64,000 nt of DNA from Melghirimyces profundicolus (lineage in GTDB: Bacteria; Bacillota; Bacilli; Thermoactinomycetales; DSM-45169). Below the pieces are notes generated by a model. The model was not told the origin of the DNA. It saw only the letters and a list, made by a program, of their open reading frames with translations, and did not search any database. The stretch spans positions 124,001 to 188,000 of the forward strand of contig NZ_QBKR01000003.1 of the NCBI RefSeq assembly GCF_003054245.1, written 5' to 3'. Positions 2,810 to 9,141 of this stretch are shown in pieces (position 1 is the first letter of the stretch; every line of letters starts with the position of its first letter). A program made the translations under genes and the position numbers.

Positions 2810-3724
2810 GTGATAAATTTAATAATGGAATCAAAACCGTACATTTTTACGGGAAGAAAGGGGAACGAGTTCGTGGAAGACTTTGATAGCTCCCGTTTTA
2901 TGAGGATGGAGTTTGAGCCGTTTTTGGTTGAAGGTTCGGAACCCCTTAAGAATGCCGTGAAGCGGGGCGAGATCCAGGAGGAAGATACCGTCTTGGTGGT
3001 GGGGCGCGGCGGGGAATACCGGGCCTTTTCGATGTACCAGATGACCTACAACAAAGTGGCCCAAGGAAGCTTGAACGGGTTGCCCTACCTGGCGACCTAC
3101 TGTCCGATTTGCCATACCGGGACTGCCATGGTCCCCGTCATCGACGGGAAGGAATTTCATTTCCGGTGTGTCGGGGTGCACAATGGCATTGCCATGCTTC
3201 AGGACCGGGAGACGGATTCCTACTGGAACCATGTGACCGGGGAATGTGTGGAAGGGCCCCTGAAGGGAAAGAAAATGGACATGCTCCTTCTGGGGCAGAT
3301 GACCGCCCGGCAAGCGTTGAAGAAGTACCCGAACCTGCATCTCTCCCTGGCCAAACAGAGCTGGCTTCACCGGATGCTGACCCCGATCATGAACTATTTC
3401 GGAAAACACGGGATTTATCCGCCGGGATACAAAAAGACGATCATCAAGCGGGACGAGCGTCTCCCGGATATGACCAGCGGTGTAGGCGTCTTCACGAAGG
3501 AAGAGCAGAAGTTTTATCCCATCGACACCATCGAGAAAGCCGGGGGGAAATTGAGTGACCGCCTCGCCGGACGACCCGTCACCGTCATCGTGGATGAGGA
3601 CGGGTTTCCGGAAGCGTACTACGAAGACACAGAGGACGGAGAGGACATTCCCCAGTATCTGTACACCCGCTGGTTTGGGTTTTCGATTACCTATCCCGGT
3701 TGTAAGATCCATCAGGCGGGATAA
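2810..3724 (+). CDS. DUF3179 domain protein, paralogue 1
   Basis: A 304-residue protein made almost entirely of a DUF3179 domain. Hallmarks are EYRAFSMYQMTYNKVAQG, LATYCPICHTGTAMVPVIDGKEFHF with a CxxC motif (here CPIC), then the aspartate/tryptophan block LQDRETDSYWNHVTGECVEGPLKGKKM. There is no signal peptide or membrane segment, so it is probably cytoplasmic. The family has no established reaction; the CxxC pair suggests metal or thiol chemistry. The GTG start is about 10 bp after AGAAGGAAA. It is the first of three tandem paralogues and is followed by its own terminator. Confidence 0.85.
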   Translation: MINLIMESKPYIFTGRKGNEFVEDFDSSRFMRMEFEPFLVEGSEPLKNAVKRGEIQEEDTVLVVGRGGEYRAFSMYQMTYNKVAQGSLNGLPYLATYCPICHTGTAMVPVIDGKEFHFRCVGVHNGIAMLQDRETDSYWNHVTGECVEGPLKGKKMDMLLLGQMTARQALKKYPNLHLSLAKQSWLHRMLTPIMNYFGKHGIYPPGYKKTIIKRDERLPDMTSGVGVFTKEEQKFYPIDTIEKAGGKLSDRLAGRPVTVIVDEDGFPEAYYEDTEDGEDIPQYLYTRWFGFSITYPGCKIHQAG

Positions 3725-4036: not shown

Positions 4037-4942
4037 TTGCAGGAGTTTGATCTTTCCCGTTTTAAGAAATCCCCGATTTACCGTGTTTTGGGACACGATT
4101 TTGAACCGTTTCCGGTCGGGGGGTCCGAGCCTGTGAAACACGTGATCGGGCGCGGAGACATCAAGGAGAATGACACGTTGTTGGTGATCTGCCGGGGTGG
4201 AGAACGACTCGCGTTTTTGATGTATCAGATGACGTATCACCATGTGGCGCAGGGAACATTGGCCGGGGAACCCTTCATGATCAGCTATTGTGCCATCTGT
4301 CATGCCGGGACCGGTTTCGTGCCGGTTATAAAAGGTCGGGAATATCATTTCCATTGTGCCGGTGTCTACAATGGGAGCGCCATTCTGCAGGATCGGGAAA
4401 CCCAATCCTTCTGGAACCCGGTGACCGGAGAATGCATGCACGGACCGTTGAAAGGGGAGCGGATGGAGATGCTGCTCCTGGGCCAAATGACGGCGGGACA
4501 AGCCCTGGAACGTTGGCCCGACCTTCGGTTGGCGCTGTCCAAACAGCCCGCGTGGCGGAAATACATCCTTTTGCCTTTCATGAATTTCGTCGGCCGGTTC
4601 GGCATCTATCCCCCCACGTTTAAAAGCACCATGCCCAAGAGAGATCCCCGTTTCCCCGACATGACCAGCGGGGTCGGCATCATGGCCGACGGTCTGAAAA
4701 AGTTTTACCCGATCGAGGAACTCGAAAAATCGGGCGGAGAGGTGACGGACGTTCTGAACCACCGTCCCTTCATCATCTCTGTGGATGAAGACGGTTTTCC
4801 GGATGTCTGGTACGAAGATGCTGAAGGTCCGGATGATGTTCCGCCCTACGTTTACACCCGTTGGTATGCGTTTTCCCTCACCTTTCCGGATTGCAAGGTG
4901 TTTGAACCGAGGTCGGAAGGGGAAACGGAAGCTGCATCCTGA
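4037..4942 (+). CDS. DUF3179 domain protein, paralogue 2
   Basis: A 301-residue paralogue of the preceding protein, alignable over its whole length. It keeps the CxxC motif (SYCAICHAGTGFVPV), the block LQDRETQSFWNPVTGECMHGPLKG, and the C-terminal VDEDGFPDVWYEDAE and YVYTRWYAFSLTFPDCKVF. It starts at a TTG preceded by AGCGAGGGA; the N-terminus is slightly shorter than in paralogue 1. No export signal is visible. It lies 129 bp upstream of the third paralogue with no clear terminator between them, so paralogues 2 and 3 may share a transcript. Biochemical function is unknown. Confidence 0.85.
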   Translation: MQEFDLSRFKKSPIYRVLGHDFEPFPVGGSEPVKHVIGRGDIKENDTLLVICRGGERLAFLMYQMTYHHVAQGTLAGEPFMISYCAICHAGTGFVPVIKGREYHFHCAGVYNGSAILQDRETQSFWNPVTGECMHGPLKGERMEMLLLGQMTAGQALERWPDLRLALSKQPAWRKYILLPFMNFVGRFGIYPPTFKSTMPKRDPRFPDMTSGVGIMADGLKKFYPIEELEKSGGEVTDVLNHRPFIISVDEDGFPDVWYEDAEGPDDVPPYVYTRWYAFSLTFPDCKVFEPRSEGETEAAS

Positions 4943-5071
4943 TTTGTGGAATCAATGATAGTCGAATATTTTTCTCTTAATATATTCTATTTCTATGGAA
5001 ACCTGGCCTTCCTCTGCTGAAAGCGGAAAAGACATGTGCTAAATTAGAAAAGAAGAGAAGGAGGGAGAAGG

Positions 5072-5950
5072 ATGGCGTTTGACATTGATCGTTTTATGAA
5101 ACAGCAGTTTCATCCGTTTCCGGTCGCCGGTTCCGAACCGCTCAAGAACGCTGTCGGTCGCGGCGAGATCAAAAAGGATGACACGGTGCTGGTGTTGAAC
5201 CGGGGCGGCGAGAGCCTTGCCTTCTGGATGTACCAGATGACGTACCACCATGTCGCCCAGGGGAAACTGGCCGGTGAGCCCTATATCGTCAACTATTGAG
5301 CGATCTGCCACAGTGGAACCAGTATGGTTCCCGTCATTGATGGAAAGGAACTTCACTTCTTCTGTGTGGGGGTATACGATGGTCTTGCCATCCTGCAGGA
5401 CCGGGAAACCGGATCCTATTGGAACCACATCACCGGAGAGTGTGTCTATGGCCCCCTGAAAGGAAAGAAGATGGACAGCCTTCTGCTGGGTCAGATGACA
5501 GCGGGACAAGCCTTGGAACGGTGGCCCGATCTTCGGTTGGCCCTGTCGAAACAACCCCTGTTCCGGCGATTGGTGATTCAACCTGTGATGAACTGGTTTG
5601 GGAAATTCGGCATCTATCCCCCCGGATTCAAGAAGACCATGGTCAAACGGGACCACCGACTTCCGGACATGATGAGCGGCGTCGGGATCATGACCGGGAA
5701 CGTGAAGAAGTTTTATCCCATCGACGCCATCGAAAAATCCGGCGGGGAAGTGCGGGATATTTTGGACGGTCGTCCGGTCAGCATCTCCGTTGACGAAGAC
5801 GGCTTCCCGGATGTCAACTATGAAGACACCGACGACTGGGAAGACGTTCCTCAGTATCTTTACACCCGCTGGTACGGTTTCGCCCTCACCTATCCGGGAT
5901 GTGAGATTTACCGGGAGAGTGAGGAGAAAAAGGAATCATCGGCTTCATGA
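5072..5950 (+). CDS. DUF3179 paralogue 3 with in-frame TGA, candidate selenoprotein
   Basis: One continuous frame of 292 codons with a single internal stop, TGA at 5297-5299 (codon 76). It sits exactly where paralogues 1 and 2 have the first Cys of the CxxC motif (TAT-TGT becomes TAT-TGA, giving Y-[TGA]-A-I-C-H). The 217 codons after it remain open and fully conserved (GTSMVPVIDGKEL, LQDRETGSYWNHITGECVYG, VDEDGFPDVNYEDTDD). The start ATG follows GGAGGGAGAAGG. A hairpin lies 15 nt downstream of the TGA. The best reading is selenocysteine in a UxxC redox motif. A recent nonsense mutation or a sequencing error is the alternative. An ordinary annotation would split this into a 75-residue ORF and a downstream ORF starting at 5324. 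Confidence 0.7.
5315..5331 (+). promoter_or_regulatory. Candidate bacterial SECIS hairpin
   Basis: GGAACC (5315-5320) and GGTTCC (5326-5331) form a perfect 6-bp stem with the five-base loop AGTAT. The loop begins 21 nt after the in-frame TGA and has a G at its second position, which agrees with the spacing and loop G described for bacterial SECIS elements. Paralogue 1, which has no TGA, can also form a weaker hairpin here, so the fold may partly reflect the encoded GTxMVP motif. Confidence 0.4.
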
Positions 5951-5952
5951 TG

Positions 5953-5985
5953 AGAAGGTCCGCAACCGGCGGGCCTTCTGTTTTT
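5953..5985 (+). terminator. Rho-independent terminator after DUF3179 paralogue 3
   Basis: AGAAGGTCCGC (5953-5963) pairs with GCGGGCCTTCT (5969-5979), with one G:T pair, followed by GTTTTT. Its position directly after the distal stop codon supports the split frame being one expressed gene. Confidence 0.85.
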
Positions 5986-6262: not shown

Positions 6263-7438
6263 TCAGTAGCGGACGGCGTCGTAGGCGTTGATCCGTCCGT
6301 GGGCCCAGTAGGTCCCCGTGCCGGGAGTCCAGTCGGCGGTGTTTTCGATCGCGGCACGGATGTTGCTCTTGCTCCTTCCCTGGGCGTCCAGTAGACCTGC
6401 CAATCCCGCCACGTGGGGGGTGGCCATCGAAGTGCCGCTCAGATAAGCGTAGCTGTTGGTCGGGTAGGTGGAGAGGATATCCACACCCGGAGCAGCCACG
6501 TCAACCCAGGTACCGTAGCTGGAGAAGGAAGCTTTGTTGTCGTTTGGGTCGGTTGCGCCGACGGCGATGGCGTTCGCATAAGCTGCGGGATAATGTTTGG
6601 TGCTGGTGCCGGCGTTCCCCGCGGCGGCCACCACGACGGCCCCGCGGTTCCAGGCGTAGTCGACCGCGCTTTTCAGAGTGGAGGAGCCGGAGGGGGACCC
6701 GAGGCTGAGGTTGATCACGTCAGAGCCGTAGTCGGCCGAATGGACGATGCCGTCGGCCACGTCGGCCAGGGTCCCGCTGCCGTTGGCGTCAAGGACGCGG
6801 ACGGCGAAGATTTCCGCATTCGGTGCCATCCCGGCCACCCCGGTGGAGTTGTTGGTCTCGGCTGCGGCCGTTCCCGCCACGTGGGTGCCGTGTCCGTTGT
6901 AGTCATAGGGGTACCAGTCGTTACCGACGAAGTCATAGCCGCGGGTCACTTTGGCGTTCAGGTCCGGATGGTCATACTGGACCCCGGTGTCCACAATGGC
7001 GATCCGGGTGCTGCCGGAGCTGCGGGTGTAGTCCCAGGCGGCTTCCGCCTGAACCTTTTGGGGTCCCCACTGGTAGCTGTTGTAATAGGTGTCGTTGGGC
7101 ACCCAGTCCGCTTTGAAGATGTAGTTCGGCTCGGCGTATTCCACGTCGGAATTTCCTTTATACTCTTGGATGGCTTCTTCCACGGATCGGCCTTTTACTT
7201 TCACCAAGTCGAACTTTACCTTTTTGTGGTCGTTGCGTTCTTTCAGCGTGGCATTTTCATTTTTGTGGGCTTGGGCTTTTTCGCTGTTCGTAGTGCCGGA
7301 TTTGAACTTCACGATGACTTCGCCTTTCACATATTCGGCCTGATCCTTCGCTTTGGCATCCACGTCGGCTGCGGCCGGGGAGAAGAGAAGCCCCAGGGTC
7401 AGAGCCAGGGCGGAAGAAAGACTGAGAAACCGTTTCAA
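6263..7438 (-). CDS. Secreted S8 serine protease, thermitase-like
   Basis: A 391-residue preproprotein: Sec signal peptide (1-24), I9-type propeptide with YVKGEVIVKFKSG (about 36-110), then a ~280-residue catalytic domain. The triad is visible: Asp150 (IAIVDTGVQYDHPDL), His183 (NGHGTHVAG) and Ser337 (SGTSMATPHVAGLAG). The mature part (GPQKVQA..AWD, VRVLDANGSGTLADVADGI, AAIENTADWTPGTGTYWAHGRINAYDAVRY) closely follows thermitase from Thermoactinomyces vulgaris, an extracellular thermostable subtilase. The TTG start follows GGGAGGG. It lies 84 bp after a second S8 gene on the same strand. Confidence 0.95.
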   Translation of the reverse strand: MKRFLSLSSALALTLGLLFSPAAADVDAKAKDQAEYVKGEVIVKFKSGTTNSEKAQAHKNENATLKERNDHKKVKFDLVKVKGRSVEEAIQEYKGNSDVEYAEPNYIFKADWVPNDTYYNSYQWGPQKVQAEAAWDYTRSSGSTRIAIVDTGVQYDHPDLNAKVTRGYDFVGNDWYPYDYNGHGTHVAGTAAAETNNSTGVAGMAPNAEIFAVRVLDANGSGTLADVADGIVHSADYGSDVINLSLGSPSGSSTLKSAVDYAWNRGAVVVAAAGNAGTSTKHYPAAYANAIAVGATDPNDNKASFSSYGTWVDVAAPGVDILSTYPTNSYAYLSGTSMATPHVAGLAGLLDAQGRSKSNIRAAIENTADWTPGTGTYWAHGRINAYDAVRY

Positions 7439-7522: not shown

Positions 7523-8782
7523 TTATTGGGCGAGGGGGAACCCGAAGCCGGAGGCGATGTCATCTCCGCTGCCGGCATCGAGACCGCCCTGGATATCGTT
7601 GGTCTTGGCGCGGTTCTGCAGTTCGTCGCGAAGTTGATGGTTGTTCCAAGACGGGTTGGCTGCCCAGATCTTCGCGGCCAGACCGGAGATGTGCGGAGTG
7701 GCCATGGAGGTTCCGCTGATGGTGTTGTAGCCGCCGTCTTTCCAGGTGGACTCGATTGTCCGGCCCGGAGCGGAGACTTCCACGTCACGCTCTTGAATCA
7801 CATCGTCCCCCACCGTGTCCGGGTTGCCCCGGGAGGAGAAATCGGCCACCCGATAGGTTCCGTTTTCCTGAACGTCCTCCAAAGCCGCCACCGCCACGGC
7901 GTTGGCCAGGGCGCCGGGGTAACCGATCGTATCCGGGTCAGGACCGTCGTTACCGGCAGCCGCCACGACAAGAGCGCCATTGTTGTACGCGTAGGTGACA
8001 GCGTCGGCGATCAGGCTGTCTTTGCTGGAGGAGCCGAGAGACATGGAGATGACCACGTTCACCCCGAGGCGGTTCCCTTCATCTGCCGCATGCCGGATGG
8101 CGTTGGCTATGTCATCGGACCAGCCGAAACCACTGTTCCCGAGGACTTTGTACGCCCACAGTTTGGCATCAGGGGCCACTCCGTAGATCCCCAGGCCGTC
8201 GGATCCGCCGTCAGCCAGCACGGTACCGGCGACATGGGTGCCGTGACCGTTTTTGTCGGTGCAAGCCCCGTTTTTCATTCCCCTTCCGGAGGTAAAATCC
8301 TTGCATTGCTCGGCGTTACCAGCCAGATCCGCGTGGTCGATGTAAGTACCGGTGTCCAGGACGGCGACCCGGGTGCCGGATCCGCCGGAAGTGGATGGTA
8401 TCGAGGAAATGTTGTAGATGGCTTCAATCCCCCAAGGGGTCTGGTCCGACGGGGTTGCGGAACGGGTTGCCTCCGCTTTTACGGTTCCAACGGTTTTTGC
8501 TTTTTGCACCTTCCGGATTTCCAAGTCCTTGCGGTTCTTAAGCCCTTCGTACTGCTTTTGGTTGACATCGGTGGTAAACCCCTTTTTTCCGAAATCCCAC
8601 CGCTCACCGTACTTTTGTTTCAGCTCCCGCTTGTCCTCTTTGTCAGCTTGGATCAGAACCCGGAATTTCTCCGGTGAAGAAGAGTCGGCTGCCGAGGCCC
8701 CGGCACCAGGGCTGAAAGCCGTGAACACCAGAGAGCAAGACAGCAATACGCTCCCCAACAATTTAAAATTTTTTGCCTTCAA
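7523..8782 (-). CDS. Secreted S8 serine protease, subtilisin-like
   Basis: About 419 residues. I place the start at the TTG at 8782, since a GAGGGAG ribosome site sits 8 nt upstream and a signal peptide follows directly (FKLLGSVLLSCSLVFTAFSPGAGASA); longer readings put hydrophilic residues before it. An inhibitor-type propeptide is followed by the S8 domain with the Asp motif AVLDTGTYIDHADL, the His motif NGHGTHVAGTV and the Ser motif SGTSMATPHISGLA. Two cysteines in the region EQCKDFTSGRGMKNGACTD may form a disulfide. A degraded relative of its C-terminus lies at 35.1 kb. It is probably an extracellular scavenging protease, possibly cotranscribed with the thermitase gene. Confidence 0.93.
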   Translation of the reverse strand: MKAKNFKLLGSVLLSCSLVFTAFSPGAGASAADSSSPEKFRVLIQADKEDKRELKQKYGERWDFGKKGFTTDVNQKQYEGLKNRKDLEIRKVQKAKTVGTVKAEATRSATPSDQTPWGIEAIYNISSIPSTSGGSGTRVAVLDTGTYIDHADLAGNAEQCKDFTSGRGMKNGACTDKNGHGTHVAGTVLADGGSDGLGIYGVAPDAKLWAYKVLGNSGFGWSDDIANAIRHAADEGNRLGVNVVISMSLGSSSKDSLIADAVTYAYNNGALVVAAAGNDGPDPDTIGYPGALANAVAVAALEDVQENGTYRVADFSSRGNPDTVGDDVIQERDVEVSAPGRTIESTWKDGGYNTISGTSMATPHISGLAAKIWAANPSWNNHQLRDELQNRAKTNDIQGGLDAGSGDDIASGFGFPLAQ

Positions 8783-9141
8783 ACAGTTCACTCCCTCGTA
8801 TAAATGGCTTGGAAGATCCTCCATAAGCACTATAACACAAACATCTGAAAATTTGTATAGATTTAATAGTTTAGTAATAATGTTAATTGGGACATCTTGT
8901 TTTCGCGCATAAAAGCGCGAAATATATTAGAATTACAATATGGTTAATAAAGGTAATTACCGTTCAAGTACAACCAACAGACGAGGAAACCAAACTTTTC
9001 CTTTGGGGGTTGACTTCTCGTTCCTGTCGTGGAGATTGATAGATTGATAATGGATCGGATGTATTTTCCATAATCCAGCCGAGACCAGTAATACCCTGAT
9101 TATGTAAGATGAAACTGCCTGCGGAGGAAGCGAAATAAGGA
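8783..9141. other. AT-rich divergent intergenic region with a perfect inverted repeat
   Basis: No gene seen. TTTCGCGC (8901-8908) and GCGCGAAA (8915-8922) form a perfect 8-bp inverted repeat around ATAAAA with no T-tract after it, which looks more like an operator or RNA hairpin than a terminator. It lies about 120 bp upstream of the divergent S8 gene. Confidence 0.5.

Follow-up and report, generated by a model that had tools for sequence, protein, structure and literature searches.

A DUF3179 gene of Melghirimyces profundicolus with an in-frame TGA predicted to encode selenocysteine, next to two cysteine-containing paralogs

The window analyzed in this study, a stretch of 64,000 nucleotides from Melghirimyces profundicolus, contains a gene on the plus strand (positions 5072..5950) that very probably encodes a selenoprotein of the DUF3179 family, with the UGA codon at 5297-5299 predicted to be decoded as selenocysteine (Sec) via the hairpin at 5315-5331. 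With the TGA taken as a stop, only a 75-residue frame is left and the gene would seem broken; judging from sequence comparison, this apparent early stop is very probably read through as Sec. The selenoprotein interpretation, put forward in the original prediction, is supported by the conservation of the TGA codon, the presence of the Sec machinery, the covariation within the hairpin, and the selection acting downstream of the TGA. DUF3179 occurs in many phyla as an uncharacterized family.

Direct reading bore out a single frame from the ATG at 5072 to the TGA at 5948-5950, the sole internal stop being the TGA at 5297-5299, codon 76, where the paralogs have TGT. The predicted product has 292 residues, with Sec76 as the first residue of a UxxC motif; the second, Cys79, is encoded by the TGC at 5306-5308 and is invariant in 61 aligned homologs (the A4 alignment). 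The protein belongs to DUF3179 by its score against the PF11376 profile (91.7 bits, with a curated cut-off of 27), and no NCBIfam profile matched any of the three DUF3179 proteins of the window. The AGGAGGG sequence at 5059..5065 is the likely ribosome-binding site. A terminator-like hairpin, identified by a consensus match only, follows the distal stop at 5953..5979, in agreement with the original prediction. The promoter scan found 2 candidates, with 2.7 expected. The source genome comprises 3.77 Mb in 67 contigs.

Two further DUF3179 genes, both encoding CxxC proteins, precede the target gene on the same strand at 2873..3724 and 4037..4942 (start codons inferred). The earlier statement that both read TAT-TGT at the Sec column is correct for the second paralog, whereas the first has TAC-TGT, with its Cys codon at 3101-3103. 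Likewise, the continuation of the target gene after the TGA, described as 217 fully conserved codons, consists of 216 sense codons and the stop and is conserved, but the whole protein is only 66% and 68% identical to the two paralogs. The array is preceded (617-2657) by genes for TspO, a 2-thiouracil desulfurase-DUF1722 protein, and a GNAT acetyltransferase, and is followed by tandem subtilase (Peptidase_S8) genes on the minus strand (6263-7438 and 7523-8830). By eye, comparable epimerase, TspO, and acetyltransferase frames are seen in locus L069, and epimerase and acetyltransferase frames in L071.

Among 61 genomes searched, 24 matches were obtained, four of which (L010, L017, L020, and L024) are fragments or weak hits and were omitted. 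The remaining 20 full-length DUF3179 copies, the window's included, belong to nine genomes of the family Thermoactinomycetaceae; outside the family, no copy was found among 42 genomes of the order. The Sec column holds TGA in eight of these 20 copies and Cys in twelve, with no further in-frame stops, so that TGA is kept in relatives at the same place. In a wider scan of a contig collection, 79 loci were recovered, 73 with one TGA at this column, five with Cys (four being repeats of family copies), and one out of register (L136, unscored). The value 73/79 is not a frequency, because the search used peptide patterns from a TGA-containing alignment and kept 80 of 101 hits, with a bias towards the subfamily of the window gene. 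Both searches agree with the earlier argument that a TGA at this Cys site is beyond coincidence. In two of the 73 TGA loci, a further stop codon (TAA or TAG) occurs close to where the match ends. As L069 and L074 duplicate L003 and L023, the distant TGA loci number 71 (the Cys loci L070-L073 duplicate L004, L006, L013, and L007), and these span Chloroflexota, Gemmatimonadota, Acidobacteriota, Planctomycetota, Desulfobacterota, Myxococcota, and others.

A second TGA-bearing copy in the window's genome (L022, G000:C19:69562-70380) is 46% identical to the target and has L023 as its neighbor in the tree. A decayed copy was observed in the genome matching Melghirimyces thermohalophilus, a species whose strain DSM 45514 is classed by NCBI in Thermoactinomycetaceae, Bacilli. 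It consists of two short pieces in different frames (L020 and L017, G001:C32, about 73451-73743), with Tyr replacing the first Cys; a full-length TGA copy is found elsewhere in the same genome.

The codons located 3' of the TGA are under purifying selection, which is most simply explained by translation of this part of the gene. In comparison with L003, one of the two nearest TGA-bearing relatives, dN/dS after the TGA is 0.113; with L002, the other one, dS is saturated, and the ratio stays below 0.08 provided that dS is 2 or more. Before the TGA, the corresponding values are 0.058 (L003) and 0.086 (L002). Alternatively, the gene could be a pseudogene, in which a TGT codon of one among three redundant paralogs recently underwent a nonsense mutation to TGA. 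One base change would suffice for this, intact Cys paralogs lie next door, and a relative carries the decayed fragment L017/L020. This reading is very improbable given the same TGA column in eight copies from six genomes without any other in-frame stop, its recurrence in the 71 distant loci, the selection that persists 3' of it, and the covarying hairpin described below.

The original prediction had staked the Sec reading on the presence of the decoding machinery, and selA (601 bits, cut-off 268), selB (371 bits, cut-off 242), selD (392 bits, cut-off 125), and a tRNA-Sec with the anticodon TCA (UCA; Rfam model and ARAGORN) were all found in the window's genome, which is the only one searched for selB within Thermoactinomycetaceae. 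The selD gene itself has one in-frame TGA. Over the ten family genomes, selA and selD above the cut-offs and an ARAGORN tRNA-Sec are each present in the same seven; in the other three, the top match of the tRNA-Sec model is tRNA-Ser(TGA). The count of seven rests on matches of 66-70 bits together with ARAGORN, since tRNA-Ser scores up to 50 bits and the Rfam model alone exceeds its cut-off in nine of the ten genomes. All eight family TGA copies fall in six of the seven machinery-bearing genomes, and a single Cys copy is present in the seventh, which matches Kroppenstedtia guangzhouensis. The three genomes without the machinery have no TGA copies: two of them share three Cys copies, and one lacks the gene. 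Among the distant host genomes, selB is above the cut-off in 23 of 29; of the other six, one has the Cys locus L138, and five with TGA copies are metagenome-assembled genomes whose completeness is not stated.

Several observations concern the wider set of Sec genes. The selD gene of the window's genome (L061, G000:C1) precedes selA on the same strand and has its TGA within a KAGUGCK motif. Two stacked hairpins, the second with a GTT loop, are predicted 3' of the TGA of selD in the seven machinery-bearing genomes. The formate dehydrogenase matches in the ten family genomes contain no in-frame stop. Three genomes from other families of the order (G014, G015, and G018) have selA above the cut-off and no match to the A1 alignment.

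A full-length product would equally be expected if the UGA were read by near-cognate decoding or as another amino acid. We give this explanation very little credence, given that all 12 family copies without the TGA have Cys as the sense codon at this column, that the Sec machinery co-occurs with the TGA copies, that the offset and loop of the hairpin match the bacterial SECIS model, and that UGA is also the terminal stop of the target gene.

The putative SECIS element of the window gene, GGAACC-A-GTA-T-GGTTCC (5315..5331, plus strand), begins 15 nt past the TGA, as originally noted, and has a stem of 6 bp plus an A-U pair. The available text of PMC13188914 gives, for the bacterial SECIS model, a stem of 4-16 bp, a loop of 3-9 nt with G in its first two places, a distance of 16-37 nt from the TGA, and an energy at or below -7.5 kcal/mol. 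The window hairpin conforms to this model in its stem (6-7 bp), its loop (GTA within A-GTA-T, G then U), its distance (21 nt from the TGA to AGTAT), and its energy (-8.3 kcal/mol for the 17 nt alone), with no difference found from the values in that text.

The 45 nt starting from the TGA align without gaps across 79 TGA copies (76 distinct rows), and the 71 distant loci have the hairpin at the same offset as the window gene. In the 79 copies, 98.9% of the cells of the 7-pair stem are paired, as compared to 32-54% for slid stems. Double-change cells number 92 versus 19.6 +/- 3.7 after shuffling (0 of 500 shuffles), and the covariation score is 0.500 versus 0.245; two of the five covariation measures are not extreme, namely double-change pairs (4; 81 of 500) and pair types (12; 10 of 500). 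RNAalifold recovers the same hairpin from the TGA copies, and the loop starts with G, followed by G or U, in all 79. The 12 Cys copies are 76.2% paired, with covariation no greater than in shuffles. The energy of the 17-nt stem-loop is at or below -7.5 kcal/mol in 61 of the 79 TGA copies, and 18 fall short. Single-sequence folding of a 44-nt stretch was no better than for shuffled sequences (z = -0.38 for the window, -0.46 to -1.65 for five other TGA copies), and therefore the support for the hairpin is comparative rather than energetic.

As kinship among sequences inflates covariation counts, a tree-aware test was applied. Columns 21 and 33, a third-base pair that is synonymous on both sides in most copies, show C/G co-change in six of six independent pairs on supported branches (median p 0.031, range 0.031-0.0625), and no co-change was seen in four control column pairs. 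For A in column 21 with T in column 33, about 4.3 of 9 events are in the same direction, with none in the opposite one; about 2.8 of 4 are so for columns 22-32 and about 2.1 of 4 for columns 23-31, again with none opposite (too few events in all three cases; p 0.125 to 0.5). The residues encoded by the stem arms swap as base pairing demands: V..T in 48 and T..V in 16 of the 79 TGA copies, with no T..T or V..V. This swap represents only two independent events in the tree and therefore serves as an illustration, not a test. In the ten family genomes, a covariance model of the element, scoring 150 first-look candidates per genome, matched the eight TGA copies (45-58 bits) and two Cys copies, and nothing else. 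The recovery of the TGA copies is by construction, because the model was trained on them and the 71 others; the informative part, within the candidate limit, is the absence of extra matches.

An ATG at 5324, inside the hairpin, opens a frame to 5950, and Met occupies this position in several copies, which raises the question of whether translation stops after 75 residues and restarts at this codon, so that a short peptide and a separate protein of 208 residues are made. No ribosome-binding site is apparent before this ATG on direct reading, and the restarted protein would lose residues 1-84, among them U76 and C79, which do not vary in the 61 aligned sequences, as well as the first strands of the modeled domain. 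Many TGA copies have a Leu codon here, a weak argument since CTG or TTG can start too. We consider such a restart extremely improbable.

The rooted maximum-likelihood tree included the 20 family copies, 27 of the 71 distant loci, and 14 canonical rows (L102 and L116 were trimmed at the stop near their end). The family copies form one clade (100/99), adjoining TGA-bearing distant copies (92/99), and the ingroup requires three Sec/Cys changes. Counted without order, these could be one loss and two regains; if regain of Sec is impossible, four losses are needed. The change count alone leaves the direction unfixed; our preferred reading is that Sec is ancestral in Thermoactinomycetaceae and was probably lost several times, since deep and shallow TGA copies share an identical hairpin that one Cys copy has as well. 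This Cys copy (L019, from the genome matching Marinithermofilum abyssi) matches the covariance model with 35 bits, its hairpin being unchanged. A probable SECIS relic is also seen in the first paralog of the window at 3119..3135, on the plus strand (24.9 bits for the R1 covariance model at 3101-3145), where the stem has an energy of -7.9 kcal/mol and the loop is changed. Remnant SECIS-like structures after Cys codons were earlier described for FdhA and a HesB-like protein (PMC1794560, available text), and the Sec-to-Cys change is called rare and largely confined to FdhA and SelD in the text available from PMC1794560 and PMC13188914. Thus DUF3179 may add a further case of Sec-to-Cys change, accompanied by hairpin relics.

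We suggest that SelB, guided by the hairpin at 5315-5331, would deliver Sec-tRNA(UCA) to the UGA at 5297-5299, and that read-through would yield the 292-residue protein with the motif U76-x-x-C79. U76 would probably make the attack in a selenenylsulfide redox cycle, with C79 as the resolving residue, and the two upstream paralogs could perform the same chemistry with cysteine or be active when selenium is short. It is Sec insertion itself, the redox role, a substrate, and this division of labor that we infer here. U/C76 and C79 are invariant in 61 of 61 aligned sequences, and therefore a selenenylsulfide cycle is the likeliest chemistry; the U76-C79 pair is likely the active site, its redox role being suggested by the motif.

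AlphaFold2 applied to the alignment of 61 sequences gave a model with a mean pLDDT of 93.7; the domain folded alone without an alignment has a pLDDT of 41. In thioredoxin folds, the CxxC or UxxC motif lies at the start of a helix that follows a strand. A thioredoxin-type helix motif was rejected because, in the model, U76 ends the strand 69-76 and C79 lies in a loop before the next strand (81-86), with no helix at the UxxC. Residues 45-153 align with Rieske [2Fe-2S] domains (for instance, 4aiv and 2de5) with Z up to 7.3 over 89-100 residues among the best 50 of 142 structures with Z of at least 2, in a re-comparison of Foldseek's own chains for which the tool itself notes that Z below 8 may reflect a common arrangement. 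We take these 50 structures to be Rieske-type proteins. Foldseek found no match in the PDB at E <= 0.001; 3gce has E of 0.096 and a probability of 0.96, and the lowest E-values belong to RNA ligases (probability 0.03). A PDB sequence search with the profile gave no match. In the hhalign comparison of the A4 profile (61 sequences) with Rieske loci (22 of 30 fetched, from 16 genomes), the probability was under 0.5% and thus lent no support to a kinship with DUF3179. All 61 A4 members match PF11376, and PF00355 is absent from the ten families matched by any of them with an E-value of 10 or lower, in a search whose filters remove most matches above 0.1. The Rieske resemblance of the fold is therefore weak and serves as a lead. 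Taken as a whole, we hold to be unlikely a broader scenario in which DUF3179 would be a Rieske-related beta-sandwich oxidoreductase that lost its iron-sulfur cluster and uses a selenol-thiol pair instead, and in which the ancestral Sec of Thermoactinomycetaceae was repeatedly replaced by Cys in paralogs of Sec-making genomes, leaving decaying SECIS relics. If true, it would provide a natural series in which the worth of Sec could be measured.

DUF3179 is already known as a selenoprotein family: PF11376 is listed as a computational one with the UxxC/T motif in the available text of PMC9312934 and PMC13188914, the latter citing Zhang and Gladyshev 2007 for it. The window gene shares with this listed family the Pfam assignment, the motif, the position of Sec at the first Cys, and the computational nature of the prediction. 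It differs from canonical DUF3179 in belonging to a divergent subfamily (91.7 versus up to 369 bits), and from the listed family in occurring in Bacilli, with Sec and Cys paralogs in one array. Canonical members in distant genomes (L170-L190; for instance, L170, L175, L179, L180, and L186) carry CxxC, UxxC, CxxT, and UxxT, and L186 has UxxA. The NCBI name "DUF3179 domain-containing (seleno)protein" indicates that public annotation already allows Sec in the family; it is carried by two of six matching plasmid records, both haloarchaeal, 26% and 31% identical. Our literature searches found no paper linking a selenoprotein with Thermoactinomycetaceae, and for the genus names of the family combined with selenocysteine, none with selenocysteine among the matches listed. 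In comparison with the known family, the present analysis adds its predicted Sec form in Thermoactinomycetaceae, side-by-side Sec and Cys paralogs, probable relics of the hairpin in Cys copies, and a structural model of high confidence. As the predicted Sec and Cys forms are adjacent in strains of Bacilli that are named and deposited, what Sec offers over Cys could be tested in one background.
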